From assembly GCF_000318095.2 (NCBI RefSeq), contig NZ_KB290705.1, forward strand, positions 133,936 through 172,800: a stretch of DNA of 38,865 bases. Direction: 5' to 3'. This DNA is from Alloprevotella sp. oral taxon 473 str. F0040 (GTDB lineage Bacteria > Bacteroidota > Bacteroidia > Bacteroidales > Bacteroidaceae). The notes under the pieces were generated by a model. The model was not told where the DNA came from, did not search any database, and saw nothing but the letters and a program-made list of their open reading frames with translations. Positions 2,466 to 30,615 of this stretch are shown here, piece after piece (the first letter of the stretch is position 1; each line of letters starts with the position of its first letter). The position numbers were made by a program, and so were the translations under genes.

Positions 2466-2568
2466 AAACTCGGAGAGTTTCAAAAAGTTCTCCGAGTTTT
2501 TTCAAAAGTTCTCCGAGATTTTTTAGAAAAAGTCGGAGATTTCTATGCACACTCTCGGAGATTTCTTG
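2466..2568. repeat. 21-bp phased CTCGGAG/CTCCGAG repeat island, copy 1
   Basis: Five CGGAG or CCGAG cores start at 2471, 2492, 2513, 2534 and 2556, i.e. spacings of 21, 21, 21 and 22 bp. Between the cores lie A/T-rich spacers such as TTTTTTCAAAAGTT. Cores of opposite orientation pair: ACTCGGAGA near 2468-2476 can form a 12-bp stem with TCTCCGAGTTTT, and TCTCCGA with TCGGAGA further right. The island fills most of the 446-bp gap between the glycosyltransferase and the WG-repeat lipoprotein; the rest holds the terminator at 2321 and the promoter at 2619. I see no convincing gene here. Confidence 0.85.
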
Positions 2569-2618
2569 TAAATAATCGCAAAACCTTCGCTTTACTCTCT
2601 CAAAAAGAGAGAAAACAC

Positions 2619-2649
2619 TTGGATGGTCGCCAAGGAAATCCTAACTTTG
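2619..2649 (+). promoter_or_regulatory. Bacteroidetes-type promoter of the WG-repeat lipoprotein
   Basis: The -7 box TAACTTTG (2642-2649) matches TAnnTTTG exactly. TTG within ACTTGG (2619-2621) sits 20 bp upstream, as expected for the -33 element. Transcription would start near 2655, giving a leader of about 50 bases before the ATG at 2705. Confidence 0.75.
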
Positions 2650-2704
2650 TCCTTATACCAATGGAAGATTTTCTACTACAAACCTTTACTAAAACTACCT
2701 GAAA

Positions 2705-4606
2705 ATGAAAGTATCTAACCTTTTTACCCTATTGTTGCTCGCCATCTCCGCAACAATCACCAGTGCTTGTTCCACTGAATCACCCTCTCATGAGATAGAA
2801 GCTTTGGCTTTCCGCAGCTCCGAATCTGGTCGTTGGGGCATCGTGAGCATGGACGGCGAAGTCATCGTCAGAGATTACTTCAAGAACGAACCTACTGTCG
2901 CAATGGATGGCAGATATTTCGTAAAAAATGACGAAGGACTGTGGGAGATGTATGACCTTTCAACCCAACCGCAAAAAAAAGGTGGGAAATACGTCTACAC
3001 TTCTGGCTTTTACCACGGCAGAGCTTTGGTGACGGAGCGCAATCAAGGGATTTCGCTCATCGACACTGAGGGAAAAGTGCTGAAACATCTGGATCGCATC
3101 GCCAATAAATCGGTAGAAGAAATAGCAAGCTTCGACCAAGGCTACGCCATCTTCATGACCACCGACAGTTTGTACGGAGCCATTGATGAAAACGGCACAT
3201 GCGTCGTCCAGCCCTCTTATTGCTATTTGGTGGCAGACGAAGGAAATTTCGTGGGCATCCCCAAGCAATACAAAAGAGTCATTCTTTCGGACGACAGCCC
3301 TCGCAAATATGCCCTTGATCTCTTCGACAAATCAGGAAGAATGCTGCATCAATTTCAGTCGTCGGAGTTTGAAGAACTCACCACAGGCAACGATAAATTT
3401 GCCATCGCCACGAAGCAAAAAGACAAAGAAAGCTGGACTTTCTACAACTTTAAGGGAGATGTGCTCTTTCGCTGCCCAGAAAATGTGAAGAATATCACGG
3501 CCATCAAGGGAAATAACTTCATCTATTCCAACCGAAAAGGCTTTGGATTGATGAATCTCAATGGAGAAATCTTGATTCCTGCCCAATATGCTGACTTAGA
3601 ATTTGATGGAGACTATCTCATTGCTACGATAGAGAGCAATGTCGATAGGAAAAGTATCTGGCTCAATCAGTACGGACAAAAGGTGGGCTCTGAGGCTTTT
3701 GAAGCTATCTACAATGCTTCTGACTTTGACAACGAGCATGCCGTGGTGAAAGTCAACGAAATGGGCTATAGTCTAGTAGACCTTAAAGGAAACCCGCTGA
3801 AACACCAGCCCGACATGGTAGAAGTGGGATGGAAAAAAGGCGATGATTTCATCCAGTCTGACATTATAGATTTGAATGAACTGCTCAACCAACTGAAGTT
3901 TAGTCCGCAAGGTGTAGATGGACTTTCCTTCCGTTCTTCTGCAGAAGTTGGAGCAAAACACTGGGCAGAAGTGAGTGGTGAAATCGAAGATGAAGAAGCC
4001 TTAGAAATGCTCCCTGCATTGTTGGGAAATCGCGCTGACCTCACCTACACCCTCAACGTCATGGGCATCCAAACCGAACTATATGTTGAGTATAATCAAC
4101 TGATGAGCCGCCACAAAGCAGGCAAAAATGGTCTCTTCCCAACGAGTGAATTGGACTATGAAGCGGAGAGAGAGGAAATGATGTCGCACAACTTTGTGTG
4201 GAATGACACATATCCCATGTCTTTCGCCATGAAAATAGCGAATAAAGGTAAGATGCACGGCAGACTTCGTCCACTTTTCAATGCGATAGTGGCGCGTTTG
4301 CAGCAAACTGGTAGCCTGATGAAAGGCAATAATGGAGCAAAAATCTTCAAACTCAAGGATGGACACCACGCGATTGTGGCATTAGAACCTCATTCCGTCT
4401 TTGTGATTTGGGGTAAAATAGAGGGAATTGAAGACTATGATATTGAGTTTTTCAAAAACCACAAAGAGAATCTCAACATTACCTCCGAAGAACTGAGCGA
4501 AGACATGACGGACGGACTCTCTGACCAAATGATGATGGAGGACAGTTCTTCGGAAGATAGACCCATGTCCTTAAAAGAAACCATCGCCAATCTAGGAAAC
4601 AAATAG
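2705..4606 (+). CDS. WG-repeat lipoprotein
   Basis: A 633-residue exported lipoprotein. Residues 1-21 are a lipoprotein signal peptide with lipobox TSAC and the lipidated Cys at 22. Residues about 40-370 contain degenerate WG beta repeats of the type G-[IL]-[IVM]-[ND]-x-x-G-x-x-[IV]-x-x-x-Y: GRWGIVSMDGEVIV, YGAIDENGTCVVQPSY and FGLMNLNGEILIPAQY are the clearest. WG repeats form repeated beta sheets and usually bind partners; no enzyme activity is known from them. The C-terminal 250 residues are of another type that I do not recognise, and end in an acidic, Met- and Ser-rich tail. It has its own promoter and a strong terminator, so it is probably monocistronic. Location is likely the outer membrane or periplasm; the function is unknown. 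Confidence 0.82.
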   Translation: MKVSNLFTLLLLAISATITSACSTESPSHEIEALAFRSSESGRWGIVSMDGEVIVRDYFKNEPTVAMDGRYFVKNDEGLWEMYDLSTQPQKKGGKYVYTSGFYHGRALVTERNQGISLIDTEGKVLKHLDRIANKSVEEIASFDQGYAIFMTTDSLYGAIDENGTCVVQPSYCYLVADEGNFVGIPKQYKRVILSDDSPRKYALDLFDKSGRMLHQFQSSEFEELTTGNDKFAIATKQKDKESWTFYNFKGDVLFRCPENVKNITAIKGNNFIYSNRKGFGLMNLNGEILIPAQYADLEFDGDYLIATIESNVDRKSIWLNQYGQKVGSEAFEAIYNASDFDNEHAVVKVNEMGYSLVDLKGNPLKHQPDMVEVGWKKGDDFIQSDIIDLNELLNQLKFSPQGVDGLSFRSSAEVGAKHWAEVSGEIEDEEALEMLPALLGNRADLTYTLNVMGIQTELYVEYNQLMSRHKAGKNGLFPTSELDYEAEREEMMSHNFVWNDTYPMSFAMKIANKGKMHGRLRPLFNAIVARLQQTGSLMKGNNGAKIFKLKDGHHAIVALEPHSVFVIWGKIEGIEDYDIEFFKNHKENLNITSEELSEDMTDGLSDQMMMEDSSSEDRPMSLKETIANLGNK

Positions 4607-4626
4607 CAGCGCACTGCAACAAAACA

Positions 4627-4661
4627 AAGTCCGCATCCCTACACGCGAGGGATGCGGACTT
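4627..4661. terminator. Bidirectional terminator between convergent genes
   Basis: A perfect 14-bp stem (AAGTCCGCATCCCT at 4627-4640 with its complement at 4648-4661) and a 7-base loop, with T-rich sequence on both sides when read on either strand. It lies between the ends of the lipoprotein gene (plus) and the DUF4132 gene (minus) and can serve both. Confidence 0.85.
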
Positions 4662-4686
4662 ATTATTTTGAGCGAAAGGGGCTAGA

Positions 4687-7600
4687 CTAGGACTGCACAT
4701 GCGGTTGAATCCACTGCAAGATGGTGGGATCTTTGAGTTTATTATCCTCTGCGAGAAGCACCACCTTGGAGATAATCTCCACCGTCTTGGGATCTTCATC
4801 CATGAAAGGCAGATAAATACGGCCGCGGTGCTGACTGTGCACAGGGATAATGGGAATTACTGTGCCGCCCTCTTGGCGCACCAAACCAGAACCTAGATGA
4901 ACGGTGTAGTTGGCGAGCATGCCTTTGATGTAGACATGGTTGCCGCTGATGCTGACATTGGCAAATTTCATCAACTCTGCTGTGCAGCGCACGATGGCAG
5001 CACGGAGTTCCTTGGTGCTTTGTCCAGTTTCGGGGTCTACACCTCCCACAAAGGCGATGCTCACCGCCATGTCGATATCGCGCATCACCTCACTGTACAA
5101 CAGAGGATCTAGGTCGGCAATGTGGAGATCTGGCACACCGGGCACATAGCGAGTGCGAGAGAACCGCACATATTCTATGGTGGGAGCTTCAACAGCTGAG
5201 GGAGAGAACCAGTCGGCTCGGGCATAGAGCGAAACGCAGATGCCTTGCGCAAGGAAGACTTTCTGCAATCCACCCTCATAACTCGCATTCCAGCCACGAG
5301 AACGCAAGGCTGCAGCGGCTTGTTTCACCTGAATTTGATAGCCACTATAGCGACGTGACTCTCTCAGCTCGGCCTCTTCCGGCATGGGCACGTAGAGTTC
5401 GCGGAAGACTTGCTTGAAGGGCTGCACCAACTTCTCAGCAAAGAGGTGAGACTGCCATTTTGCCCACAGTCCAGCTGCGTTGAAATCTACGGGGTGTGCG
5501 AGAAGAAGTGGCGATTTTCCATACTTTTTCACCCCATCTAACGTGGCGAGTCCTTCGGCGGTGGGAAGTCCGAACTGCTGGTCTTGGAGAAGCACGAGCT
5601 TTTTGAACATCGGACTCACCACGGGATTGGAGAGAATGGCGCGCACATCGTCCATGGCTAGCGGAGTGCGGCGTTGCATTATGTCTTCCAGTAGGAAGCG
5701 CGCACGCTGATGTTGGGCTTTCCACGCCCTGCTCACCTCCGCTATCTCCAGATATTGCGGATGCTTCTTGAGTTTTGTAGGAATCCCTTTGAGCAACTTC
5801 TTATCTTTGAGGATTTGCAACCTATTGGTGCCGTCGTCCTTGAGGGAGATGATGCAGGAATATCCTTCGATGTCGATGCCTTCTAGGTAGTTGGCTGCGC
5901 TTTCCACCTGAAGGGCTTCCATGCGCCACGTAAGTTGCACGGGATCGGCAAAGCCTGCACCACGAGAAAGATTGAGGAGCGCAATCTCCCATACGCGTCT
6001 TTCAGAGTCTTGTCGCTGAGCACCAAACTGTTTTGACTCTTTGAGGAACTGCTGAATGCGAAGATAGCGACGTTGGATCGCAGCATCGTCACGATCGGTG
6101 AGCAATCCTAGTGCGCACACAGCATCTTTGTTGCGCTTCTCTTTGATTTGCTTCAGGAGTTCTTCCTCTGTCACCTTGCCTTGCACGACATCTGCATAAC
6201 GGCGTGCCCGAGTGTGGATGGCACCACTGCCGATGTATTTGGCAGCCTTGGAGCAGATTTCAAAACGCTCTTCTCCGATTTCTTCAAGAGCTTGGCGGAA
6301 GAGTGCCTCGTCAAACGCACCATCTGCGAGATCTAGAGGGTCTAGTTCGGTGTAACGTGCGATGAGTGCCTTTTTTTCGTCGTTGCCCATCTCACGAGCA
6401 TGGGCGATGAAGTAGTAATAGGCGGTACGGAATCCGCGCCAATTCAGACGTTGCTCCACAAAATCCAGCCACTGTGGCGCGAAGAATGCGAGTTCTACGA
6501 GGAGTTGTTCCGAGATGTCTGCCAACATCTCGGGCGTATCTGTGGGAAGCGGGTAACAGCTCGTCGCCAAACTACTGAGGATGGAGCGGCGCTCTGTGCC
6601 ATAAATGTCGATTTTGAGGTGATCTTTGCGCACTGCCTTCATGATGCGCGCCACACGCTCTGCCCCTTTGAGCACGAGAATGTAGCAGCACTGATGAAAC
6701 GCCTCAGTAGCCTCTGTGGGAGCATTGCGACGTTGCATCTCCACTTCAAAGAGATGGTTGATAAATCGATCGACTAAATCTCGGGTGTTTTGGCTATAAC
6801 AAATCAAATTGACCTCGTCTCTTGCATATTTCTCCAGTTCTTCCACCTTTTTCAGGCTCAGTGCTCCCCAGCGATGGGCATAAGCCAGATCCATCATATC
6901 TTGCAAGCCGCGGAATTTTTCATATTCCATCTGCGTATACAGCTGGTCTTCGTTGATGGTTCCATGCGCAAGCAGCTGAAGCAGGACAGCCGTCGGAAGA
7001 TAATAAACATCTTCCCAGTCCTCTTGGCAAGCAGGTTCGCCCCATCTGTGGTAAAACGCAAGAAACATCGGAGCTACGCGCTCAAACTCGCCCTGCATGT
7101 TCGATTCGCACGCATGGATGGCGTATTTCAATGGAAATCCTCCAGAGATAGGATAGATTGCATCATCGCGATACCTGTAGGGTTCCTTATAAGTCTCTTG
7201 TGGGGTATACCAATAACACAGTTGGCAGAGGGTGTAAGCATGGGAGAACACCAACTCAGGTCGCCGTTTCTTCACCATGTGTTGGAGAGCCACGATCATT
7301 CTCTGGAACTTCCATAAATGGGTCCACTGCACTCGCCCGCCGATATCGCCAAAAGGATAACCGTTCAAAGGCAAGGGCAACACCCCTAGTCGGTCATTGA
7401 GCAAAAGATAACTCATCATCAAATCAAGAGCTAAGACTTTTTCGTCGGTGATGTCGTAACGTTCGATCCAACCTTTCCAGAGTTCCGGGTAAGGGAGCTG
7501 ATTTACCTCTGTGGCACCGTTCCACATAAAACCGCCGTCATAGAGACATAGCGTTTCTCCCCTTTCGTCTTGGTAGGTGAGTTCCTTGTTATCCTCAAGG

Positions 7601-9753
7601 ATTTGGGCAAAATCGTCATAGATAGCTTTGACATCTTTTTCTGTTAAGGGGAAGAGTTTGGACAAATCTAGTTTGGATTTGCTGGTTCCCCTGGAGAAGA
7701 TTCGAGCAAGCAAAGACTTTTTCTTGGAATCTATGGACACCCACTGCGAAACAGGGCTTGCGGCGAAACGTTCTGCGTCAGCAAATGGATTTTCAAAGGG
7801 GAGTTTTGGCAGCTCTGTGGGAGTGAACAAGCCGAAACGTAGTTGACTGTCGCCTGCATCTCCCACTTGCGCTGCTTTAGCTTCACTCTTTCCGGCTGCG
7901 GCTCCACTGTCAGCAGCACCATCCTCAGAGATTTTCTTCTCTGACTCGGTCACTTCGCCAAACTTCTCGCGCAAAATGGCACTGCCCTCACGGAGTTCCA
8001 CCAGACAATCGGCTATATAGTCGCCATTCGTACACAGCAATCGCTCATAAGCTCCCACCAAAATGTCATCGGGCTGCGTGAGCAGCAACTGCACTGCGCG
8101 TTGGCGCGTGGTGGAAACCTTGGATTTGAATTTGGCATCAAGGAGTTGGATTTCCTTATCTGTGAATTGTTCGCGCAAGAACGCCTCGCGGAATACGAGA
8201 AACAGGGCATCGTTCTCAAAATTCAAAGCATTGCGCAAGAGAAAACCTCGACGCGCCTCGGGAGATCCCATAGGAAGCACGTAGGAAAAGAAGAAATCTG
8301 TATATCCATCTTTGTCACTATTGTAATAATAATAGGAGGAGAAGATATTTACTCCCCATGAGGGAATCTTCTGCGCAAGGAATTTATCCACAGCAGCTTG
8401 CGTGTGGAGGAGCAGAGAGATCGTATATAAGACATTGATAACGCTTTCGCGCGTGAAAGAAATGCAGAACCACTCGAATCCCGGATGGACCACTTTATTC
8501 TTCGCTTTGAGTGTTGGCAGCCAATCTAAAATTGTTTGGTGCAACACCTCCAGTTTTTTCCGAGTATTCTCGCTGAATGCTATCGCCTTTTTCGTTTTAA
8601 CGAAATGGTCTAATACGTCTGTTCCTCTAAACTCATTGATGATGTAGGCACGAAAAGTAGGTTCTTCTAATCGAAGAGTAAATACATCGAGATGCAAAAA
8701 GTCTATATAGTGCCTATCTTCCAGATTGACACGATTTAAATACCACAAGGCAGCCACAGAGACCTGCGAGGGTTTGTCACTAGTCAGCAGCGCTTCAGCC
8801 TCGTCAAATGCCACTTGCGCATCGACACAGCCCACAGTATAGAGCGCAATATAGACAAGTAGCGGATTATCTCCTGCATAAGCAGTGGCGAGTTCCTCGG
8901 GATGCTCGAGATATCGGCGAATGGCGTGGAAGATAGTCGCAATATCCTTATCTTCAACCTTTTCGTATCCCAATCCGCACCAAGTTTGCACGGCACGACG
9001 TACAGAGCTATAGCGCAAAAGTCCCTCTTCGTCGACGACTTTTAGGAGTTTGAGGTAGAAATCCATGTTGTAGGAATCACCACTCTCCAGGATTACTTGT
9101 CGCAATCCCTCTTGCAACTTAGCTGCTTTCAGCAGGTTGAGGAGCAAATCATGGAGTTCTTCGTTGTCACCACGCTCGATAGCGCAGACTAATTCGTAAG
9201 ATAAGATGCCAACATTGTTTTCTGAGGTGATTACGTCCTTAGCAGCGGCAATGACTTCGGCATTGCCTTGGCGTAAAGCGGCTCCAATGAAAGCGCTATA
9301 ACCGACCTTTCTAAACTCCTGTAGGCGCATTGTATGGCGCCCACGAACAAGATCGTCTAAACTTGCTCCATGAAGAGCTATCATAAACGCATCGACGACT
9401 GTCTCTCTCACAGTAGCTTCCGACAACTTGCCTGAATTAGACAAGCGGAAGCGATAAATGCTGCGCATCATCCCCTTCGTTTCCTGATAACCAAGGAGAT
9501 ATGCCAGAATTTCACTGAGCCACGAGGGCAACAGGTGGGGAAGATGGTAACCAGCTATGAGCAGTTGGGAATGCACTAAGGAACCGATGGTCAGTTCTTG
9601 TAAGGACTTGTGGAGTTCCCAAGGAGATACTTCAGACAAATCCTTAGATTTTACGGCTTTATACAGCACTTCTTCGACCTTGTTCAATGAGTTGACATCG
9701 ATTTGAGCTAAATAATCCTTCTTAAATAGTTCTGCTTGTTCTGGAGTACGCAT
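4687..9753 (-). CDS. Giant DUF5724/DUF4132-type protein
   Basis: A 1688-residue cytosolic protein with no signal peptide or membrane segment. Residues 1 to about 595 are mostly helical and repeat-like, in the manner of HEAT-type scaffolds. A low-complexity Ala/Glu/Lys/Ser linker follows at about 598-630. The rest resembles the DUF4132 family: blocks such as YPLNGYPFGDIGGRVQW-like sequence, YLEGIDIEGYSCIISLKDDG and a conserved C-terminal module with SRTRYVPGVPDLHIADLDPL, RDIDMAVSIAFVGGVDPE and GNHVYIKGMLANYTVHLGSG. E. coli YehI (MolR) is the best-known DUF4132 protein; the biochemical role of the family is not established. The small gene upstream on the same strand is probably its partner. The ATG at 9753 is the first in the frame and directly abuts a heptanucleotide repeat. 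I am fairly sure of the family, not of a function. Confidence 0.75.
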   Translation of the reverse strand: MRTPEQAELFKKDYLAQIDVNSLNKVEEVLYKAVKSKDLSEVSPWELHKSLQELTIGSLVHSQLLIAGYHLPHLLPSWLSEILAYLLGYQETKGMMRSIYRFRLSNSGKLSEATVRETVVDAFMIALHGASLDDLVRGRHTMRLQEFRKVGYSAFIGAALRQGNAEVIAAAKDVITSENNVGILSYELVCAIERGDNEELHDLLLNLLKAAKLQEGLRQVILESGDSYNMDFYLKLLKVVDEEGLLRYSSVRRAVQTWCGLGYEKVEDKDIATIFHAIRRYLEHPEELATAYAGDNPLLVYIALYTVGCVDAQVAFDEAEALLTSDKPSQVSVAALWYLNRVNLEDRHYIDFLHLDVFTLRLEEPTFRAYIINEFRGTDVLDHFVKTKKAIAFSENTRKKLEVLHQTILDWLPTLKAKNKVVHPGFEWFCISFTRESVINVLYTISLLLHTQAAVDKFLAQKIPSWGVNIFSSYYYYNSDKDGYTDFFFSYVLPMGSPEARRGFLLRNALNFENDALFLVFREAFLREQFTDKEIQLLDAKFKSKVSTTRQRAVQLLLTQPDDILVGAYERLLCTNGDYIADCLVELREGSAILREKFGEVTESEKKISEDGAADSGAAAGKSEAKAAQVGDAGDSQLRFGLFTPTELPKLPFENPFADAERFAASPVSQWVSIDSKKKSLLARIFSRGTSKSKLDLSKLFPLTEKDVKAIYDDFAQILEDNKELTYQDERGETLCLYDGGFMWNGATEVNQLPYPELWKGWIERYDITDEKVLALDLMMSYLLLNDRLGVLPLPLNGYPFGDIGGRVQWTHLWKFQRMIVALQHMVKKRRPELVFSHAYTLCQLCYWYTPQETYKEPYRYRDDAIYPISGGFPLKYAIHACESNMQGEFERVAPMFLAFYHRWGEPACQEDWEDVYYLPTAVLLQLLAHGTINEDQLYTQMEYEKFRGLQDMMDLAYAHRWGALSLKKVEELEKYARDEVNLICYSQNTRDLVDRFINHLFEVEMQRRNAPTEATEAFHQCCYILVLKGAERVARIMKAVRKDHLKIDIYGTERRSILSSLATSCYPLPTDTPEMLADISEQLLVELAFFAPQWLDFVEQRLNWRGFRTAYYYFIAHAREMGNDEKKALIARYTELDPLDLADGAFDEALFRQALEEIGEERFEICSKAAKYIGSGAIHTRARRYADVVQGKVTEEELLKQIKEKRNKDAVCALGLLTDRDDAAIQRRYLRIQQFLKESKQFGAQRQDSERRVWEIALLNLSRGAGFADPVQLTWRMEALQVESAANYLEGIDIEGYSCIISLKDDGTNRLQILKDKKLLKGIPTKLKKHPQYLEIAEVSRAWKAQHQRARFLLEDIMQRRTPLAMDDVRAILSNPVVSPMFKKLVLLQDQQFGLPTAEGLATLDGVKKYGKSPLLLAHPVDFNAAGLWAKWQSHLFAEKLVQPFKQVFRELYVPMPEEAELRESRRYSGYQIQVKQAAAALRSRGWNASYEGGLQKVFLAQGICVSLYARADWFSPSAVEAPTIEYVRFSRTRYVPGVPDLHIADLDPLLYSEVMRDIDMAVSIAFVGGVDPETGQSTKELRAAIVRCTAELMKFANVSISGNHVYIKGMLANYTVHLGSGLVRQEGGTVIPIIPVHSQHRGRIYLPFMDEDPKTVEIISKVVLLAEDNKLKDPTILQWIQPHVQS

Positions 9754-9755
9754 GA

Positions 9756-9895
9756 GATTAGACAGTAGATATAAGACGTTAGATATTAGACGTTAGACGT
9801 GAGAGGCTAGACATTAGACGTTTGACCACCGATATTGAACATTAGACCGACAATCTTGGACGTTAGAAGTTAGAAAGTTGACGTTAGCCCCTAGA
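9756..9895. repeat. Phased heptanucleotide (nnnTAGA) repeat, locus 1, 20 units
   Basis: The 140 bp read as 20 consecutive heptamers without a phase slip. The last four positions are mostly TAGA and the first two or three vary: GATTAGA, CAGTAGA, TATAAGA, CGTTAGA, TATTAGA, CGTTAGA and so on. CGTTAGA is the commonest unit. The middle units (9819-9860) are more degenerate but keep the 7-bp phase. The tract lies between the stop of the small beta-grasp-like gene and the start codon of the DUF4132 gene, beginning three bases from that ATG, so it would be in the transcript of the pair or hold the DUF4132 promoter. Confidence 0.85.
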
Positions 9896-9945
9896 AATAT
9901 AGGAATTGGCAATCAAAAACACGGAGGAAATCTTCCATATTCACC

Positions 9946-10356: not shown

Positions 10357-10385
10357 AAACTAAACTCTAATGTGCGATAACTCTG

Positions 10386-10397
10386 CGCATATATGCG
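10386..10397. promoter_or_regulatory. 12-bp perfect palindrome upstream of the beta-grasp-like gene
   Basis: CGCATATATGCG is a perfect palindrome 30 bp before the start codon of the gene at 10356. It could be an operator for a dimeric regulator; no TAnnTTTG box was found next to it. Function is unproven. Confidence 0.3.
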
Positions 10398-10410
10398 TTG
10401 TACATGCCAT

Positions 10411-10454
10411 AAAATCAAAAAAAACGGCCATTCTTAGGGCAAGAAAGACCGTTT
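10411..10454 (-). terminator. Rho-independent terminator after the T9SS-tail protein gene
   Basis: Read on the minus strand, an imperfect stem (AAACGGTC...GGCCGTTT, with an inner CTT/AAG pairing) is followed by a run of T (the A run at 10417-10424 on the plus strand). It lies 80 bp beyond the stop at 10535 and insulates the beta-grasp/DUF4132 genes from upstream transcription. Confidence 0.75.
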
Positions 10455-10534
10455 ATGCTGAGAGTTCGCATAAAAAACGAAGACTATATATAAAGTATTC
10501 TGTGAATGCATAGGCCGTAAAGCTGAGTGTCGCT

Positions 10535-10930: not shown

Positions 10931-10956
10931 AGGCTTAAAATGCTAAGTGATTGTGG

Positions 10957-13061: not shown

Positions 13062-13186
13062 TAAAAAACTAGGTAATCGTCCTAAAACTCCAAGAGTTTC
13101 AAAATTATCTCGGAGATTTTATAAAAATTCTCGGAAATTTTCAGAAATATCTCGGAGATATTTTGAGAAATCTCCGAGAATTTTAG
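13062..13186. repeat. 21-bp phased CTCGGAG repeat island, copy 2
   Basis: Cores start at 13069 (CTAGG, degenerate), 13090 (CCAAG), 13111 (CGGAG), 13132 (CGGAA), 13153 (CGGAG) and 13174 (CCGAG): five spacings of exactly 21 bp. The last two form a perfect 10-bp stem (TCTCGGAGAT with ATCTCCGAGA). The island lies between queC (start) and ndh (end), both on the minus strand, and its right-hand hairpin could help to terminate ndh transcription. Confidence 0.85.
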
Positions 13187-13249
13187 TTCAATAGTCCAAG
13201 AAAGATGATAACGGCCTATGAGATGCTCTGTAGAAGTTCCCCAAAAGCA

Positions 13250-17974: not shown

Positions 17975-18030
17975 TATTCTTCCAAGAGTTTTTCAAATTT
18001 CTACCGAGTTTGCACAACAATCTTGGGAAC
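17975..18030. repeat. Possible degenerate fourth copy of the 21-bp phased repeat
   Basis: TCCAAGAGTTTTTCAAATTT followed by CTACCGAGTTTG closely resembles part of copy 2 at 13088-13118. The cores CCAAG (17982) and CCGAG (18004) are 22 bp apart. It lies in the 387-bp gap between the divergent lysS and yhhQ genes; the rest of that gap holds the two promoters and the candidate riboswitch. Confidence 0.45.
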
Positions 18031-22540: not shown

Positions 22541-22633
22541 AAGCAATGAAATATAGAATAATGCCATAGACATTTGTAATAAGGCTATCCACCTTTTCAG
22601 ACAACCTCCCAAACTACTAGATTATACTCTTCT

Positions 22634-23338: not shown

Positions 23339-23466
23339 GAAACTGGTAGAGGCTGGGCAACACCTTGGGAAATCCCAATTTAGCAACTCAAGTTGCTTAT
23401 TGCGCTATTCTGAGCGTTCAAAATGTTTTTCCAACTTAAATTCTCGAATTTTCCTATACATTTTTC

Positions 23467-23497
23467 TTGGAAGTCTTATAATAAAAATATACTTTTG
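23467..23497 (+). promoter_or_regulatory. Promoter of the Cys/Lys-rich secreted peptide gene
   Basis: The -7 box TACTTTTG (23490-23497) matches TAnnTTTG, and TTG within CTTGG (23467-23469) lies 20 bp upstream. The leader to the ATG at 23559 is about 55 bases. Confidence 0.7.
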
Positions 23498-23558
23498 CGG
23501 GAGATAAAACAGATTTATCTGACAAATAACATTCATACAACCACAAAAAACAGACAAC

Positions 23559-23870
23559 ATGAAACTATTCAATGCAAACGCTGCGGCTAAATGCCTCGCA
23601 TTCGCCGCTCTCCTCTCCTTCGGTCTCAATGCTGCTGCACAAGACGTAAAGCAAGATGACAAGCAAGAACAAAAGGCTTGCTGCAAGAACGGCGACAAAA
23701 AGTGCTGCAAGAAAGAAGACAAAAAGGACAACAAAAAGTGCTGCAAGAAGGAAGACAAGAAATCTTGCAAGAAGGGTTGCATGAACGACTGCAAAAAGGA
23801 ATGCAACGAAAAGAAGGGTTGCTGCGGCGAACAAGGTTGTGGCGACAAAAAGAGCTGCGACAAGAAGTAA
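23559..23870 (+). CDS. Secreted Cys/Lys-rich small protein
   Basis: A 103-residue protein I cannot assign to a named family. Residues 1-27 are a Sec signal peptide (core CLAFAALLSFGLNAAA, cleavage before QDV). The mature part, about 75 residues, has 14 Cys and about 27 Lys, arranged as imperfect repeats of CCKKEDKK and CKK with Asp and Glu between; the middle Cys are paired (CC), later ones are single or in GCC and GCG. There are almost no hydrophobic residues, so a folded hydrophobic core is unlikely; a metal-binding or disulfide-rich extended chain is more plausible. It has a good promoter and a strong terminator, so it is likely a real gene. The low-complexity sequence means composition alone gives chance matches to metallothioneins. 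Confidence 0.7.
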   Translation: MKLFNANAAAKCLAFAALLSFGLNAAAQDVKQDDKQEQKACCKNGDKKCCKKEDKKDNKKCCKKEDKKSCKKGCMNDCKKECNEKKGCCGEQGCGDKKSCDKK

Positions 23871-23911
23871 CCTTGCTCCCTTTCTAGTGCAATTTGCACT
23901 TCCAGCATAAA

Positions 23912-24081
23912 CGGAGGTGTTGCAAAACTCGTTTTGCAACATCTCCGTTTTGTTTGACAAAGGAATAAATGCTAAGCATTGAGATGGAGGGTGAAGGGAA
24001 GGTACTGAAGTATGTGACCAAAGCTAATTTCGAAAATAACGCAGCAGTTTCCCCTTGATTCCCCTGAGTTTTTTTGTACCT
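23912..24081. repeat. 170-bp repeat with terminator-like hairpin and MITE-like part, copy 1
   Basis: It is homologous over its length to 26366-26542. It opens with a hairpin (17-bp stem, 23912-23947) and T-rich tail that can terminate the upstream Cys-rich gene. The next part (from about 23949) carries AATGCTAAGCATT, a hairpin whose stem is kept in the other copy with a different loop, then GAGATGGAGG, GGTACTGAAGTATGTGACC and AGCAGTTTCCCC. The terminal inverted repeats that are clear in copy 2 are only partly kept here. The rest of the gap to groES (24082-24320) holds a candidate groES promoter box GAACTTTG at 24182-24189 (poor match), a small hairpin at 24263-24281, and no gene that I can see. 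Confidence 0.85.
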
Positions 24082-24320
24082 TTCACTATTTCAGCGTATA
24101 CATTTGTTCAATCGCCTGTTTTTCATGCAGACTGTAACTGACAAAATGTCGTTTTTATAAAATAAAAAACAAGTTTGGCAGGAACTTTGCATTCTATGAA
24201 ATCAACAAAGCAAGCATTTGCTGCGTACTCTAATCTCTCCAACGAGAAAAACAAAGAAAAGATGTCGAAGAAACATCGACAATTTCTCATTGCATTTCAA
24301 ACACATAAAGATATAAGACA

Positions 24321-24593
24321 ATGAATATCCAACCTCTAGCTGATCGCGTACTCATCAAGCCCGCGCCCGCAGAAGAAAAGACCATTGGTGGCATCATCAT
24401 CCCCGACACAGCCAAAGAAAAGCCTTTCAAGGGCGAAGTGATGGCGGTAGGACAAGGCACCAAGGACGAAGAAATGGTGCTCAAAGTGGGCGATGTCGTG
24501 CTTTATGGCAAATATTCTGGCACAGAAATCGAAGTAGAAAACGAAAAATACCTCATCGTTCGTCAGAGTGAAGTCTTGGCTGTAGTGAAATAA
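24321..24593 (+). CDS. groES: Co-chaperonin GroES
   Basis: A 90-residue subunit of the heptameric lid of the GroEL chaperonin. The N terminus [19 protein letters not shown] is typical, followed by the mobile loop [16 protein letters not shown] that contacts GroEL, and the C-terminal [20 protein letters not shown] with the terminal strand VLAVVK. The gene is 65 bp upstream of groEL on the same strand and the two form the usual operon. I saw no CIRCE inverted repeat (TTAGCACTC-n9-GAGTGCTAA) upstream, so heat-shock control would not be by HrcA of the classical type. Confidence 0.97.
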
Positions 24594-24649
24594 GTCTAAG
24601 CATTACACACTCCCTCCCCTACTTCTTCCTATTACTCTCTCAAAAATAG

Positions 24650-26296
<1,647 letters not shown>

Positions 26297-26365
26297 TCTC
26301 CCACACTTCCCTTAAGTTCAACGCTGAAGACTTACATAGCCCTTCAAGCACTGAGCTCCAAAGAT

Positions 26366-26542
26366 AAGGAGATGTTGCAAAACTCATTTTTGCAGCATCT
26401 CCTTTTGGTGTTTTATAAAGGGATAAAATGCAAGGCATTGAGATGGAGGCTGAAGGGAGCGTACTGAAGTACGTGACCAAAGCTGAATATCGAAAATAAC
26501 ACAGCAGTTTGCCCTTTATGAAACACCCTGTTTTTTGTACCT
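26366..26542. repeat. 177-bp repeat with terminator and MITE-like element, copy 2
   Basis: The left part is a strong terminator hairpin (17-bp stem, 26366-26382 with 26388-26404, then T) that ends groEL transcription. The right part (26407-26527, 121 bp) is bounded by 16-bp terminal inverted repeats with one mismatch: GGTGTTTTATAAAGGG at 26407-26422 and CCCTTTATGAAACACC at 26512-26527. Inside are further hairpins AATGC/GCATT and GCGTACT/AGTACGT. Size, inverted ends and lack of coding capacity resemble a MITE. No target-site duplication is obvious. The rest of the gap to 26636 shows nothing else. Confidence 0.85.
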
Positions 26543-26636
26543 AATCGGGAGAAATTCCCCCATCGCTCACATTTGTGGCAAAGGATGCCCGTGGATAGTG
26601 TCGATGTGTCGCACCTCAGCTAGGTCACCACCGCCA

Positions 26637-27440
26637 TTACCCCTTATCCACTGGACGTTTGAGCAAGAGCAATTCGCGTTTGGTCTCCGCATCAATGCGA
26701 TAAGACTCACGAATCTTCTGAATCGCCTTGTTGTGTGTCCATGCAGGAAGGAGATTTTGTGCCAACCACATTTGGGTCTCTTCGGGACAATGGGTGAAAC
26801 ATTCGGCCACCGCCCACGCCACTGCCATGCGCACATAGTAGTCTTCGTGAGTGATGGCAGCAAGTTGCGCTAAGAATAGTGCTAGATGGCTTGGTTTTGC
26901 AAAATACTGCAATCCCATCACCACAGCAAAACGAATTTCGTAGGTGCGCTGTGCCGAGAAATAGGGCAAGATGAACGACCAAACCTCCCCTTCGTGCGCT
27001 GCCACCCAGCGTTTTCCACCCGAAAAACTAAAGATGTCGCACACCGACCAACTGTGGATGCTGGGCACCCATCGCGCCACACGTTGCAGATAGTCAGCCA
27101 CGTCGGTGACACGCCACTGACTCAGCACAAGCCCATGCAGGGTTCGGGCCTCCATCCATCCGAAATCCGCTTCTGGTTGTACTGATGCTCCATTCTTTTG
27201 TTCAGACTCATGCAGTTTTTCTAGCGCAACATAGTGCGCTGCCAAACTTTCGGCTTCCTGCAAATAGTCTTCTTGCGTGCCGCTTTTGATGATGTCTTTC
27301 GCCAGTTTGCGCAAATCGGGAATACGCACTCCCAGCACACCAGGAATGTTGGGATGCAAGCGTTGGTTGAACTCCATATTGCCACGTTGGGCAAGCGACA
27401 AAAGGTGTTGGTCGATGGTTTGGCTGTGAATCGTGTACAT
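26637..27440 (-). CDS. DNA alkylation repair protein, AlkD-like
   Basis: A 267-residue protein made of HEAT-like helical repeats, of the AlkC/AlkD family. AlkD removes 3- and 7-alkylated purines from DNA without base flipping. Visible features are GVLGVRIPDLRKLAKDI near the N terminus, DFGWMEARTLHGL, and the block SIHSWSVCDIFSF in which W131 and D135 correspond to the family's aromatic and catalytic-Asp positions. The C-terminal PEETQMWLAQNLLPAW and NKAIQKIRES are typical too. The frame is open to 27500, but 27440 (MYTIHSQTID) is chosen since a promoter box lies between. It stands alone and its -7 box is at 27481. Confidence 0.87.
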   Translation of the reverse strand: MYTIHSQTIDQHLLSLAQRGNMEFNQRLHPNIPGVLGVRIPDLRKLAKDIIKSGTQEDYLQEAESLAAHYVALEKLHESEQKNGASVQPEADFGWMEARTLHGLVLSQWRVTDVADYLQRVARWVPSIHSWSVCDIFSFSGGKRWVAAHEGEVWSFILPYFSAQRTYEIRFAVVMGLQYFAKPSHLALFLAQLAAITHEDYYVRMAVAWAVAECFTHCPEETQMWLAQNLLPAWTHNKAIQKIRESYRIDAETKRELLLLKRPVDKG

Positions 27441-27480
27441 AGTGCGCAGAGTTGAACAAAAGATTACGGAGAAACGACTA

Positions 27481-27488
27481 CAAAAATA
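27481..27488 (-). promoter_or_regulatory. Promoter -7 box of the AlkD-like gene
   Basis: Minus-strand TATTTTTG matches TAnnTTTG and lies about 40 bases before the start at 27440; it excludes the upstream ATG at 27500. No clear -33 TTG. Confidence 0.5.
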
Positions 27489-27551
27489 GGTATTTTTCAC
27501 TGCATTAAAATCATTTATTAGGCAAAATCAGCCTGATTATCCACAAAAATG

Positions 27552-27559
27552 TAACTTTG
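27552..27559 (+). promoter_or_regulatory. Promoter -7 box of the permease gene
   Basis: Plus-strand TAACTTTG followed by C. Transcription from near 27565 would include the heptamer repeat at 27572 in a leader of about 130 bases before the ATG at 27699. Confidence 0.55.
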
Positions 27560-27571
27560 CAGGGGAATAGA

Positions 27572-27634
27572 GATTAGACGTTAGAAGGTAGACGTTAGAC
27601 AATAGACGTTAGAAGCTAGACTTTAGACGTTAGA
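27572..27634. repeat. Phased heptanucleotide (nnnTAGA) repeat, locus 2, 9 units
   Basis: Nine heptamers in strict phase, each ending in TAGA: GATTAGA, CGTTAGA, AGGTAGA, CGTTAGA, CAATAGA, CGTTAGA, AGCTAGA, CTTTAGA, CGTTAGA. CGTTAGA recurs mostly at every second unit, so a 14-bp super-repeat is visible. It starts with GATTAGA like locus 1 (9756), and again lies just upstream of a gene, here inside the predicted leader of the permease gene. Confidence 0.88.
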
Positions 27635-27698
27635 GTCTTCCTTTCGCCCCCTCTACCTTAGGACAACGTCTTGAGATACCACACAAAAAACTAAACTT

Positions 27699-28979
27699 AT
27701 GCAAGAAATACTCCGACTCATTCACGAGATGTCGCCCTATCTCCTCCTCGGCTTCTTCATCGCAGGACTGATGCACGCCTTCGTGCCTGGACGACTTTAC
27801 AGCCAATATCTCAGCGGAAACGACCTCCGCTCCGTACTCTATGCCGCGCTCTTCGGCATTCCCCTACCCCTCTGCTCATGCGGGGTGATTCCCACCGCTA
27901 TGTCGCTGCGCAAAGAAGGGGCTTCGCGCGGGGCTACCACCGCTTTCCTCATCGCTACTCCTCAAACGGGAGTGGACAGTATCTTTGCAACCTACTCTCT
28001 CCTTGGACTTCCTTTTGCGATAGTTCGTCCTGTGGCAGCACTGGTCACGTCTGTCTTTGGCGGAATGATGATGAATCGATTTGCCCCCCTCGAAACTGAA
28101 GCTCAGAAAGCGGCAGTAGATGCAGAAATCAGCAAAGCTACCTGCACCATCGAGGCGCAACAACCCTCCTTTCTTGGAAAACTGGGCATCGCCTTCCGCT
28201 ATGGGTTTGTCGATATGATGCACGACATTGGCAAATGGCTTTTGATGGGTTTGGTCGTTGCTGGACTTATCACCCTCTTTGTGCCCGACAACTTTTTTGT
28301 GCAATTCGCAGAAATTCCCTTCCTCAGCTACTTTGTGGTGCTGCTCATCGCCATCCCCATGTATGTCTGCGCTACCGGAAGCATACCCATCGCAGCCGCG
28401 CTCATGCTCAAGGGACTCTCGCCTGGTGCAGCCCTGATTCTCCTCATGGCAGGTCCAGCAGCCAACATGGCTTCTGTGCTAGTGGTGCATCGCGCCTTGG
28501 GACGTCGCAATCTCATCGTCTATCTCGCATCGCTTATTCTCGGCGCAGTGGGCTTTGCACTCCTCATCGACTATGCGCTCCCACGCACATGGTTCACCCA
28601 CTTTGCCGCGCCTACAGATGCTAGCTGCCACATAGAAACTCCGTGGTTTCAATGGGCAAGCACGCTCCTCCTTGGTGCGCTTTTGATCTATGTCTTCATC
28701 GCGCTTCCACTGTGGAGAAAACTGCATCCGCAAACGGAATTAACCATCGACCAATCATCTTCTTCTGCCACTCCCGTGCGCAAGTTTGCCGTGGAAGGCA
28801 TGACCTGCAATCACTGTCGCAACCACGTGGAACGCGCTATTCTCGGAGTGGAGGGAGTGACCCAAGCCACAGTGTCACTCGAAGATGCCGAAGCTCAAGT
28901 CATCGGCACGGCTTCGGACGAAGCTCTCCTCCAAGCTGTAGCAGAGATGGGCTATCAACTCAAACCAAAACCGGAATAA
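27699..28979 (+). CDS. Permease with C-terminal HMA domain (SO_0444-type Cu/Zn efflux family)
   Basis: A 426-residue inner-membrane protein. The first 350 residues carry about eight to ten membrane helices of the YraQ/DUF318 permease type, with GIPLPLCSCGVIPTAMSL (Cys pair near the substrate path) and TPQTGVDSIFATY in the first half, and the mirrored CATGSIPIAAALMLKGLSPG and MAGPAANM in the second. The last 65 residues are a heavy-metal-associated domain with the metal site GMTCNHC at about 367-373. This permease-HMA layout is that of the SO_0444 family proposed to export Cu or Zn. The HMA would collect the metal in the cytosol. It has its own promoter and a strong terminator; no metal regulator is beside it. 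Confidence 0.83.
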   Translation: MQEILRLIHEMSPYLLLGFFIAGLMHAFVPGRLYSQYLSGNDLRSVLYAALFGIPLPLCSCGVIPTAMSLRKEGASRGATTAFLIATPQTGVDSIFATYSLLGLPFAIVRPVAALVTSVFGGMMMNRFAPLETEAQKAAVDAEISKATCTIEAQQPSFLGKLGIAFRYGFVDMMHDIGKWLLMGLVVAGLITLFVPDNFFVQFAEIPFLSYFVVLLIAIPMYVCATGSIPIAAALMLKGLSPGAALILLMAGPAANMASVLVVHRALGRRNLIVYLASLILGAVGFALLIDYALPRTWFTHFAAPTDASCHIETPWFQWASTLLLGALLIYVFIALPLWRKLHPQTELTIDQSSSSATPVRKFAVEGMTCNHCRNHVERAILGVEGVTQATVSLEDAEAQVIGTASDEALLQAVAEMGYQLKPKPE

Positions 28980-29097
28980 AACCTGCCACTCCTCCTGAGC
29001 ATCCGTCAGATTGCTCTGATATAACCTAGAGATGGGGCACAGATTCAACAGCGAACTGCGCGTTTTCCTTCCAATCTCTTCCCCCTTTCCTCAACAA

Positions 29098-29143
29098 AAT
29101 AGCGACACTGCACTAGAGAATTTCTCTGTGCAGTGTCGCTATT
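29098..29143. terminator. Bidirectional terminator between permease and acetyltransferase genes
   Basis: A long near-perfect hairpin: AATAGCGACACTGCA pairs with TGCAGTGTCGCTATT, and the inner AGAGAA pairs with TTCTCT. It lies between the ends of converging genes. Confidence 0.8.
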
Positions 29144-29171
29144 CTCATAAAGCGAGGAGCTACCTAAAGCA

Positions 29172-29747
29172 TCATTGGGAATCCTGCTCACTCTCTTCTA
29201 GCCATTTCACTGGACGGCAGGGATTGCCCACCGCCACGCAGTTGCTGGGAATGTCCTTAGCCACCACGCTTCCTGCACCGATGGTGACATTATCTCCAAT
29301 GGTGACACCAGGTAAGACGGTGACTCCCCCACCAATCCACACATTGTGCCCGATGGTGATGGGTTCTGCCCACTCTTGTCGTGAATTGCGCGCCACGGGA
29401 TCTGTGGGATGACAAGCCGTATAAAGCCCGACATTAGGGCCAATGAAACAGTTGTCGCCAATGGTGACTGGAGCTTCGTCGAGAACGGTGAGATTGAAGT
29501 TGGCAAAGAAGCCTTCGCCCACTGAGATATTGCTACCATAATCGCAATGAAAAGGCTGATTGACAATCACTCTTTCGCCCGTCTTGCCTAAAATTTGCTT
29601 GATTTTTTCCGTGCGCAGGGCATGGTCGGTAGGGCGAATCTGATTGTACTCAAAGACTGCATTTTGAGTGGTAAAAAGTTCAATAAGAATTTCAGGGTTG
29701 CAAGCATCGTAGATGTGCCCTGCAAGCATTTTTTCTTTTTCGGTCAT
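29172..29747 (-). CDS. Sugar O-acetyltransferase (Maa/LacA family)
   Basis: A 191-residue left-handed beta-helix enzyme that moves acetyl from acetyl-CoA to a sugar hydroxyl. The N-terminal MTEKEKMLAGHIYDACNPE is the typical Maa start. Hexapeptide repeats fill the rest: VTIGDNCFIGPNVGLYTACH carries the catalytic His of the H-P motif (HPTDPVARN), then ITIGHNVWIGGGVTVLPGVT and VTIGAGSVVAKDIPSNCVAV. The ending NPCRPVKWLEE is normal for the family. The sugar acceptor (maltose, galactoside or other) is not certain. The gene begins 15 bp after the pabC stop on the same strand, so they are probably cotranscribed, although their functions differ. Confidence 0.92.
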   Translation of the reverse strand: MTEKEKMLAGHIYDACNPEILIELFTTQNAVFEYNQIRPTDHALRTEKIKQILGKTGERVIVNQPFHCDYGSNISVGEGFFANFNLTVLDEAPVTIGDNCFIGPNVGLYTACHPTDPVARNSRQEWAEPITIGHNVWIGGGVTVLPGVTIGDNVTIGAGSVVAKDIPSNCVAVGNPCRPVKWLEESEQDSQ

Positions 29748-29762
29748 GGGATAAACTGAGAT

Positions 29763-30473
29763 TTAATGGGCTGTGAGAGGAAGGAGGGCTACCATGGGAA
29801 GTTCGATTTCTCCCCATGCCAGCATGGCATTGAACAGTCGGATGCGGGAAAATTCCGAAAGGCGATCGAGAGTCAGCGCGGAGTCTTCAAAGATTGTGCC
29901 AGTGCGCAGCAGAAAAGCTCGATGCGTGCCGCGGAGCAAAGGACGTGCCGGCGTATACCACCGTCTCTGCTGCTCGTGCCACAGGGCGATGTTGGCAATC
30001 GACGTGTCTGTGAAACACTTATCTCGCACCATGAGCACATCATCGCAGCCATTGCGTTGGTCGAAACACTCCATGATTGCCCTGCGATTGGTAGATTTAA
30101 GGGCGTAGTCCACATGATTGGCCTCAACTAGGCGGAGCGAGCGTACCAACCGTGGGGAATAACTCCGGAAGGTAATGGAGCGAATGCCCTCTGCCCCATA
30201 GACGATGCGCGCCATCGTGCGACCTTGGCGACAATCTTCGGGCATTTGTGCTGAAGCGGTAGCCCAGTGCTTGGGCAACTCTTTGCTGACATCTCGCCAC
30301 ACCAAGGCTTGACATGCCGCCTGCATGCGAGCCAGATGGAAAGGCCAGCGTAGCACTTCCCCATCAATGAGACAAAGGCTCTCCACCAATTCACAGATTA
30401 GGGATGAAGGTGCTGCATTCGCCTGAAAATCGGGTAAATAAATCAAGGATTCTTGGAAGAGTTGGTCAAACAT
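29763..30473 (-). CDS. pabC: Aminotransferase class IV, probable aminodeoxychorismate lyase (PabC)
   Basis: A 236-residue PLP enzyme of fold type IV. The probable Schiff-base Lys is K126 in VDYALKSTNR, and the C-terminal cofactor block is visible as CFTDTSIANIALWHEQQRRW and TPARPLLRGTHRAFLL. A short N-terminal region (LICELVESLCLIDGEVLRWP, then FHLARM) fits small PabC-like proteins of Bacteroidetes. In the pathway PabC splits 4-amino-4-deoxychorismate into p-aminobenzoate and pyruvate. The PabB-like gene is on the same strand about 1.9 kb away, which supports this role over a branched-chain transaminase. AraC and cupin genes lie between the two. It is followed by the Maa-type gene. Confidence 0.8.
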   Translation of the reverse strand: MFDQLFQESLIYLPDFQANAAPSSLICELVESLCLIDGEVLRWPFHLARMQAACQALVWRDVSKELPKHWATASAQMPEDCRQGRTMARIVYGAEGIRSITFRSYSPRLVRSLRLVEANHVDYALKSTNRRAIMECFDQRNGCDDVLMVRDKCFTDTSIANIALWHEQQRRWYTPARPLLRGTHRAFLLRTGTIFEDSALTLDRLSEFSRIRLFNAMLAWGEIELPMVALLPLTAH

Positions 30474-30509
30474 CAGTGAGCTATTTTGAGCTATCTACGA
30501 AGATTGGAC

Positions 30510-30615
30510 TAAAAACGTGGGAGACTTCTAAAAAGTTCTCGGAGTTTTTTCAAAATATCTCGGAGAACTTTTAGAAAAAGTCGGAGATTCTATACATAAC
30601 TCTCCGACTTTTTAT
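30510..30615. repeat. 21-bp phased CTCGGAG repeat island, copy 3
   Basis: Cores start at 30519 (GGGAG), 30540 (CGGAG), 30561 (CGGAG), 30582 (CGGAG) and 30604 (CCGAC): spacings 21, 21, 21 and 22, identical to copy 1. AGAAAAAGTCGGAGATT is shared with copy 1 almost exactly. The last two units pair as a 12-bp stem (AAAAAGTCGGAG with CTCCGACTTTTT) followed by T, so it may also end transcription. It lies between the end of the AraC gene and the start of pabC, both on the minus strand. Confidence 0.87.

Follow-up and report, generated by a model that had tools for sequence, protein, structure and literature searches.

The Alloprevotella genome from which the analyzed DNA derives (2.55 Mb; hereafter G000) carries at least ~86 located arrays, mostly intergenic, in which a near-palindromic core, [C/G]TCSGA[C/G], recurs at 21-bp steps between A/T-rich 14-bp spacers. 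No two of the located arrays lie within 6 kb of each other, either in this genome or in that of a sister species (G061), and this minimum separation, seen in two sister species, is a new finding. We consider phased DNA-protein docking arrays that mark the chromosome to be the best reading of these elements, and we hold it with a little less than even confidence.

Three arrays lie in the window – the whole stretch of 38,865 nucleotides that was analyzed – for which the original prediction had also claimed a weak fourth.

Array 1: 2469..2560, no strand assigned; five cores at 2469, 2490, 2511, 2532 and 2554, in steps of 21/21/21/22 bp.
Array 2: 13088..13200, no strand assigned; six cores at 13088, 13109, 13130, 13151, 13172 and 13194, in four steps of 21 bp and then one of 22.
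Array 3: 30517..30608, no strand assigned; five cores at 30517, 30538, 30559, 30580 and 30602, in steps of 21/21/21/22 bp.
Claimed weak fourth island: 17975..18010, no strand assigned; unsupported, two cores with two mismatches, 22 bp apart by eye.

The core positions bear out the steps predicted for the first and third islands. The second is likewise an array, though its last step is 22 bp and the claimed run of five 21-bp steps is not seen; by eye only, an extra degenerate core lies near 13066. An array model built from rows that excluded the window sequences matched the three islands with E values of 3.8e-16, 3.1e-12 and 1.1e-11 and gave no match up to E 10 at 17975, where the prediction therefore fails. 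Array 1 lies between an ORF for a GT2 glycosyltransferase and one whose match to WG repeats is weak and falls below the cut-off; array 2 between a QueC-family ORF and an NDH2-like ORF; and array 3 between an ORF for a class IV aminotransferase and one of AraC-type HTH. Orthologous arrays are present in G061 for all three, that of array 2 holding seven units.

The predicted excess of 21-bp spacing over random sequence is present in the window and across the genome. Window cores with at most one mismatch stood 21 bp apart nine times (mean 0.17 in 30 first-order Markov simulations), and CGGAG-N16-CGGAG occurred as 115 pairs in G000, as compared to 5 for the reversed-pattern control. When the gap was left free at 6–34 bases, direct TCGGAG pairs numbered 126 (control 10); among the 100 of these that were listed, a 21-bp spacing accounted for 88 and a 22-bp spacing for 10, with single pairs at 25 and 26 bp and none at 20. 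Inverted pairs numbered 45 (controls 1 and 1), with centers 21 bp apart in 36, 22 bp in five and another distance in four. Direct and inverted cores thus share an identical phase, with 137 neighboring cores in the same orientation and 60 inverted. Steps of 22 bp are frequent at array ends, and a typical array has mostly 4–7 units over about 70–155 bp. Across 255 oriented units, selected for at most one core mismatch and with the center G set by orientation, T, the second G and A reach 99–100% and C 89%, while the middle of the spacer is near random. The combination of exact phasing and degenerate sequence that had been noted in the window is thus a property of the whole genome.

Siting between genes was also correctly anticipated, with 2 of 53 arrays (L013 and L041) in likely coding frames. 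The gene context of 45 arrays (29 tandem, 8 divergent, 8 convergent) resembles that of other gaps (25/8/7), and a promoter role was rejected on this lack of orientation bias. We observed no correlation between array orientation and GC skew (rho 0.18, P 0.20, 53 arrays; rho -0.04, P 0.79, 38 arrays).

Many of these places are conserved in the sister species. Among 31 matched G061 sites, 24 hold an array by the model and 25 by the chain rule, which L020 passes without a model match; for matched sites fetched via synteny alone, the count is 11 of 18. Seven of the 31 lack a model-supported array, which indicates that single arrays are dispensable. Over 25 loci, the two genomes are 83.0% identical in the core, 74.7% in the spacer and 74.4% in the flank. 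In some G061 arrays the interior has been replaced, in that species’ own dialect; the pair L009/L196, with flanks 99% and spacers 77% identical, shows that interiors can outpace the flanks of the same locus in their change. The sister dialect contains ACGTCGGAG, in which a stem like that of CGTC-tagged REPs is absent by eye. Array orientation in G061 looked one-sided from 0.2 to 0.83 Mb, a split made post hoc and left unused.

The spacing of the arrays is markedly even. In G000, 60 arrays on seven contigs (of which 14 are known from a single listed core pair rather than from retrieved sequence) define 53 intervals with a minimum of 6.0 kb; a single interval is shorter than 8 kb, as compared to 15 expected, and 0 of 5000 random placements were as even. 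Neither 52 array-bearing stretches of G000 nor the surroundings of the three window arrays showed a second array within 2 kb (8.7 expected), and 29 stretches of G061, each of 4 kb, likewise held no second array. Thirty scanned 20-kb stretches of G061 (594 kb) contained no pair closer than 6 kb, as compared to 5.0 expected (P 0.0018). An apparently array-free gap at 295–437 kb in G061 arose from an incomplete match list: four scanned stretches there hold five more arrays. At 2.36–2.50 Mb, a region that carries Rhs-type and immunity genes, four scanned stretches hold one array. The exclusion is not genus-wide: in G009, an Alloprevotella with a different dialect, model matches are densely packed, and 53 of the 97 intervals measure less than 6 kb and 17 less than 2 kb; many of these matches are weak and partial, and the figures are raw interval counts.

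Related species carry arrays of equal period in different letters, and many other Bacteroidales loci carry arrays, unrelated in sequence, with periods of 21 and 22 bp. Contig-1 stretches (up to 20 kb) from other genomes of the order contained six arrays in 261 kb, with periods of 15, 16, 20, 22, 23 and 23, and those from other groups of the phylum contained 18 arrays in 346 kb, three at 21 and one at 22. These counts do not show an excess of 21–22-bp periods for the order as a whole. Values from a consensus-stacking palindrome test were mostly non-significant, and a whole-array test was used instead.

We reasoned that these properties would be explained if each 21-bp unit were a dyad-like site for a putative dimeric DNA-binding protein. 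An array of mostly 4–7 units would then align as many dimers on one helix face, and the aligned dimers, binding cooperatively, could nucleate a compact nucleoprotein complex. The roughly 86 located complexes would be placed mostly between genes, whatever the gene direction, and at least 6 kb apart; such direction-independent siting and spacing suggest action on the whole chromosome and not on one adjoining gene. Possible roles include anchoring, looping, and topological or segregation marks. Site and protein might drift jointly to give each species its dialect, which the copying of unit blocks between loci would keep uniform. A phased protein-binding surface, raised as a candidate in the original prediction, fits best because direct and inverted cores share one phase and spacers diverge around a core that is kept. 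A wider proposal is that a chromosome-organising system has gone unrecognised in Alloprevotella and perhaps in much of Bacteroidales, one in which a putative protein polymerises along dyad sites two helix turns apart, from tens of spaced loading arrays whose alphabet co-drifts while a pitch of 21–22 bp is held. We regard this extension as speculative and rather doubtful.

The main rival to docking arrays, a real possibility though one we doubt, is that these are minisatellite- or MITE-like repeats in the style of BrickBuilt, selfish or neutral, that spread in the past and have been homogenised through ectopic gene conversion; copying in register would then preserve the 21-bp length of the unit. 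Consistent with copying between loci, 68 spacer pairs in distant arrays are identical at 13 or more of 14 positions (20.9 expected, maximum 36), some of them as neighboring pairs, and interiors can be replaced in the dialect of the species. Part of the 44 array ends examined carry an inverted AGTTGNNC-type motif at a 22-bp step, from which no TIR was defined, and a few arrays have flanking motifs common to several loci, as if a larger piece had been copied. The dense G009 arrays and the unrelated 21–22-bp arrays at many Bacteroidales loci also fit, as does a 23-bp array in P. gingivalis, going by part of the account in PMC4596501. Random insertions, however, are not expected to keep 6 kb or more apart, and the phase held by inverted cores and the conservation of the core above its spacer also count against this rival. 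In seven aligned loci where the array is absent or reduced (three or fewer G061 units by the chain rule), neither a duplicated target nor a clean empty site was seen by eye. Spacer identity is 0.537 between adjacent units (a slight, nominal excess), 0.493 between non-adjacent units of the same array and 0.503 between different arrays. Unlike in a growing minisatellite, adjacent units are therefore hardly more alike than unrelated ones, and the local duplication expected of minisatellites/VNTRs is not seen. Of the recombination or slippage origin that had been proposed, recent tandem slippage is thus unsupported, while the sharing of distant spacers and the swapping of interiors between species point to a possible part for recombination. 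CRISPR was rejected on repeat and spacer traits: the core is only 6–7 bp, and the 14-bp A/T-rich spacers are mutually related.

It is unlikely that the arrays are DNA-mechanical sites for gyrase or HU-like wrapping, read by bendability in the manner of BIME-2 or strong gyrase sites. In the G000 unit, GC content is highest at the core and in the middle of the spacer (44–47%) and falls to 4–19% in the A/T tracts, giving a 10.5-bp rhythm, and the length and spacing of the arrays fit as well. For comparison, the gyrase motif of E. coli extends symmetrically over 130 bp and has a 10.75-bp GC rhythm, and BIME-2 are gyrase sites, as given in sections of PMC6379681. The half-period rhythm is, however, non-significant in other dialects (42 arrays, Fisher P 0.13; 31 arrays, P 0.51), and a dialect-independent helix-turn rhythm was rejected because it was seen in G000 only. 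The core letters are also too conserved for reading by shape alone.

A role at the RNA level, with the arrays acting as hairpin-forming 3’ elements or as terminators for both directions, is also quite unlikely. Either strand folds better than its dinucleotide-shuffled versions (for 53 arrays, mean z -3.4 on one strand and -3.3 on the other, as compared to -0.8 for 21 control segments), and the hairpin potential predicted from opposed cores is thus present on both strands. Uniform arrays nevertheless fold worse (best-strand mean z -2.4, 14 arrays, as compared to -4.4, 39 arrays) and same-orientation neighbors exceed inverted ones, 137 to 60; the hairpins therefore look like a by-product. The suggested terminator role is unsupported because the arrays have no orientation bias, and intrinsic terminators were rejected since arrays are as frequent in divergent gaps as the share of such gaps elsewhere (29/8/8 vs 25/8/7). 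Rfam gave no match at gathering score in the window.

Palindromes of the REP type mobilised by a Y1 transposase (RAYT) are very improbable and, for the G000/G061 pair, largely refuted: the elements are small, mostly intergenic, clustered and partly inverted palindromes with a GGAG edge, but Y1_Tnp (PF01797), matched in four of eight genomes searched, has no match in G000 or G061, and exact 21-bp tandem phase does not figure among the REP traits set out in portions of PMC3733652.

Dispersed intergenic repeats are a kind already known. The prediction that no named element would match agrees with Rfam, searched for the window, and with the literature searched, which covered few subscription papers and describes neither an exact two-turn phase in two orientations nor dialects nor a 6-kb minimum spacing. 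To our knowledge, Bacteroidales nucleoid organisation has been little studied, and docking sites would offer a handle on it. If the arrays are only repeats, concerted evolution keeps a pitch while letters change, and a mechanism for this is needed.

Among known systems, the Noc- and SlmA-binding sites of nucleoid occlusion are specific protein sites scattered on the chromosome and read as a mark. Those sites are palindromic and their binding proteins are known; we know of no phased arrays among them. This comparison, in which the Alloprevotella protein is putative, concerns only how the arrays might work. The gyrase motif and BIME-2 share a symmetric extent of about 130 bp with a one-turn GC rhythm, and BIME-2 an intergenic location (from parts of PMC6379681); the Alloprevotella arrays differ in their strict sequence core and in a rhythm that is non-significant in other dialects. 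PINSR of Prevotella intermedia is also a lineage-specific, non-coding intergenic repeat without TIRs, with 177 and 184 copies and about three quarters of its places common to strains, but it is a 188-bp element described without 21-bp phasing, as far as the excerpted report goes (PMC4755523). GTAG- and CGTC-tagged REPs and BIMEs are likewise many-copy short palindromes, mostly intergenic, that form REP dimers and clusters; CGTC-tagged REPs differ in having 8–9-bp stems and 4–5-nt loops and in being seldom clustered (selected text of PMC3733652). Identity with CGTC-tagged REPs was rejected, as the G000 unit (CTCSGAG/GTCGGAG) has neither tag nor stem by eye. In the Alloprevotella arrays clustering is the rule, the phase is exact, and no RAYT match was found in G000 or G061. 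BrickBuilt, with 19 copies of imperfect 23-nt tandem units in Porphyromonas gingivalis, shares with our arrays an origin in Bacteroidales, tandem units roughly two helix turns long that are dispersed between genes, predicted stem-loops and, as a possible likeness, inverted-repeat end segments. It differs in a repeat, AGAYCATARTATCCTCTCRTRTG, that looks unrelated by eye and in having a leader and a tail, up to about 300 nt long, that carry IS5-like TIRs (PMC4596501). The Alloprevotella arrays, for their part, are set apart from BrickBuilt by dyad-like units, both orientations in phase, at least ~86 located arrays and an exclusion distance.

The original prediction described three intergenic islands in which CGGAG/CCGAG cores recur at 21-bp steps; all three are present, with steps of 21 bp and some of 22 bp, while a weak fourth island that it proposed was not supported. 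Across the whole genome (G000; 2.55 Mb on 24 contigs), CGGAG-N16-CGGAG occurs 115 times versus 5 for the reversed pattern. With the gap between direct cores left free, 88 of the 100 matches listed (126 total) fell at 21 bp, the remainder of those listed being 10 at 22 bp, two at 25–26 bp and none at 20 bp. Inverted core pairs keep the same phase as direct ones, with centre-to-centre distances of 21 bp in 36 of 45 cases and 22 bp in 5.

We fetched 56 stretches of ~4 kb around listed core pairs, which together with the window contain 53 arrays by a core-spacing criterion (the chain rule). Six stretches lack an array by this rule, two of which (L004 and L029) match a later array model. Steps between units comprise 181 of 21 bp, 27 of 22 bp, nine that skip one unit and none of 20 bp, a step the rule permits. 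The 22-bp steps sit at an array end in 22 of 27 cases, and on part of the array ends AGTTGNNC appears at a 22-bp step, inverted between the two sides. In the oriented unit an A/T-rich spacer leads into [C/G]TCGGA[G] and a further spacer. It derives from 255 cores, with the centre G fixed by construction and a selection limit of one core mismatch. Conservation reaches 99–100% at T, the second G and A, and 89% at C; the middle of the spacer is near random. RNA folding of the arrays beats shuffles on both strands, more strongly in mixed-orientation arrays.

Based on a simple ORF caller, 45 arrays are intergenic (29 tandem, 8 divergent, 8 convergent), a distribution similar to that of comparison gaps of at least 150 bp (25, 8 and 7). 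Eight arrays lie inside ORF calls, with L013 and L041 looking truly coding on both sides. Genes adjoining the window arrays are ordinary.

In G000 and its sister genome G061, the located arrays lie apart along the chromosome. Sixty were placed on seven G000 contigs (1.52 Mb); fetched sequence supplied 46 of them and single listed core pairs the other 14. The 53 resulting intervals have a minimum of 6.0 kb, with one below 8 kb (15 expected), and a coefficient of variation of 0.61 versus 0.96; none of 5000 random placements was as even. The 52 array-bearing stretches of G000 and the surroundings of the three window arrays show no second array within 2 kb (8.7 expected). The array model scored 150 candidates per genome and merged matches <1.5 kb apart, those merged among the listed matches all lying within ~200 bp of each other. 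Together with the arrays that it added, G000 has at least 86, with 0 of 77 intervals below 6 kb versus 17 expected before allowing for merging, and G061 at least 86, with a minimum of 7.0 kb and none below 6 kb versus 10.7 expected under the same merging; later additions brought G061 to at least 90 arrays and left the minimum at 7.0 kb. Past this short-range exclusion, spacing is still significantly even for G000 (P 0.004); for G061 it is not (P 0.13).

Because the model match lists are incomplete, we rested the exclusion on scanned sequence. Thirty 20-kb G061 stretches (594 kb; 22 selected for their synteny to the window or to G000 arrays, and 8 from apparent gaps) hold 26 arrays, some weak, and no pair closer than 6 kb versus 5.0 expected (P 0.0018). 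G000 and G061 share many array places and are thus not independent. The exclusion distance does not hold in G009, another Alloprevotella with the unit form TACTCCGCCGACAGTTTTTAC, where 145 model matches merge into 126 places and 53 of the 97 intervals measure less than 6 kb.

All ten arrays first found at 0.22–0.83 Mb of G061 are one-directional (net G-centred on the + strand) and others are mixed, a post hoc observation that GC skew does not explain. Three G061 loci at 2.37–2.48 Mb (L289, L290 and L292) have no array matches and a GC content of 0.33–0.40, versus a mean of 0.49 in other stretches; the matches they do contain are of Rhs-type, baseplate-hub and immunity (Imm11/Imm43) genes.

G061 is Prevotellaceae bacterium Marseille-P2826 (LT608321.1, a 2.76-Mb scaffold), whose GlnN is 99% identical to that of G000 (83% for Alloprevotella sp. 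Lung230) and whose DNA is 88% identical to the window over 9.6 kb aligned. From these GlnN identities we regard G000 as an Alloprevotella. Matching G061 regions were compared for 31 of the 53 G000 arrays, some fetched for holding an array; 25 of the 31 have at least three units by the chain rule and 24 have a model match, L020 passing the rule without one. Regions fetched by synteny alone carry an array in 12 of 18 cases by the rule and 11 by the model. Across 25 loci (L020 included), identity is 83.0% in cores, 74.7% in spacers and 74.4% in flanks, with 0.19, 0.11 and 0.20 gap openings per substitution, respectively. Arrays at L001, L012 and L038 are almost unchanged, and at L009/L196 the flanks and array ends are near-identical and the interior is changed, with one unit fewer. 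The preferred core is ACGTCGGAG in G061 versus CTCGGAG in G000. Absent or reduced G061 sites display diffuse intergenic turnover and, by eye, no target duplication.

Among 36 same-genus genomes, exact-pattern excess is clear in G033 (the same genome as G061, judging from identical counts and positions), G013 and G018 and weaker in G032; arrays in G009 and G032 each have a distinct sequence of their own. A 21-bp period characterizes 28 of 31 arrays of period 20–23 in stretches of G009, G013, G018, G032 and G044. These were ascertained through CGGAG pairs spaced 21 bp apart, with some places (L142/L147/L271, L152/L270) double-counted. A three-core TCGGAG pattern has 41 matches in G000 and a single match across 60 further genomes from the phylum.

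We also examined 79 named Bacteroidales loci around glnN, chosen without regard to repeats and with coding arrays left in. Their 77 tandem-like arrays show an excess of 21-bp (16) and 22-bp (24) periods, any other period occurring at most nine times, and 23 of 40 period-21/22 arrays are dyad-like at P ≤0.05 versus 10 of 37 others. We treat this excess as a lead, since the loci come from a single neighbourhood, near relatives are among them, and stretches elsewhere do not show it clearly. L102, L089 and L106, loci of up to 14 kb, each contain several different 22-bp arrays, each with its own letters, one including by eye a centre-S palindrome, ATCAGTGSCACTGAT. About ten loci from different species have 21–22-bp arrays of unrelated sequence within ~600 bp after the glnN match:

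Arrays downstream of glnN: L079, L088, L097, L102, L106, L112, L120, L127, L129, L133

Within G000, spacers from different arrays reach an identity of 13/14 or more in 68 pairs, versus 20.9 (maximum 36) after column shuffling, and some different arrays have two neighbouring spacers in common; pieces have therefore been copied between loci. The flank AATCAAGGAG is common to arrays at L025, L026 and L027 (contig C14, about 76–139 kb) and at L034, and an inner motif, TCGGAGATTTC....GAAATCTCCGA or a near variant, occurs at five C14 places, as if a larger piece had been copied.

The arrays are candidate sites of chromosome-scale protein docking on DNA, a mechanism that we infer from the pitch shared by both orientations, the strictness of the core against its loose spacer and, in this lineage, the exclusion distance. 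A close rival is that the arrays are a repeat family, consistent with replaced array interiors, the copying and the dense arrays of G009. Slippage, raised in the original prediction, fares poorly, as neighbouring spacers are scarcely more alike (53.7%, 123 pairs) than spacers of different arrays (50.3%; 49.3% for 122 non-adjacent pairs within arrays; 50.6% predicted from column composition alone).

Two other repeats occur in the window. A 106-bp tandem repeat (37872–38523; 6.2 copies, 85% matches), with a period that is not a multiple of 3, overlaps small ORFs. A heptamer tandem family (TTAGACG and variants; 9757–9867 and 27568–27634) has periods of 7, 14, 21 and 28, and a similar motif adjoins array L012. 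These heptamers recall the intergenic heptamer repeats of some Bacteroidetes (PMC4679880), though the letters differ.

The window has no Rfam match, no Y1 transposase match was found in G000 or G061, and searches of the accessible literature found no published description of these arrays. The nearest published systems found are BrickBuilt, REPs, PINSR and gyrase/BIME-2.
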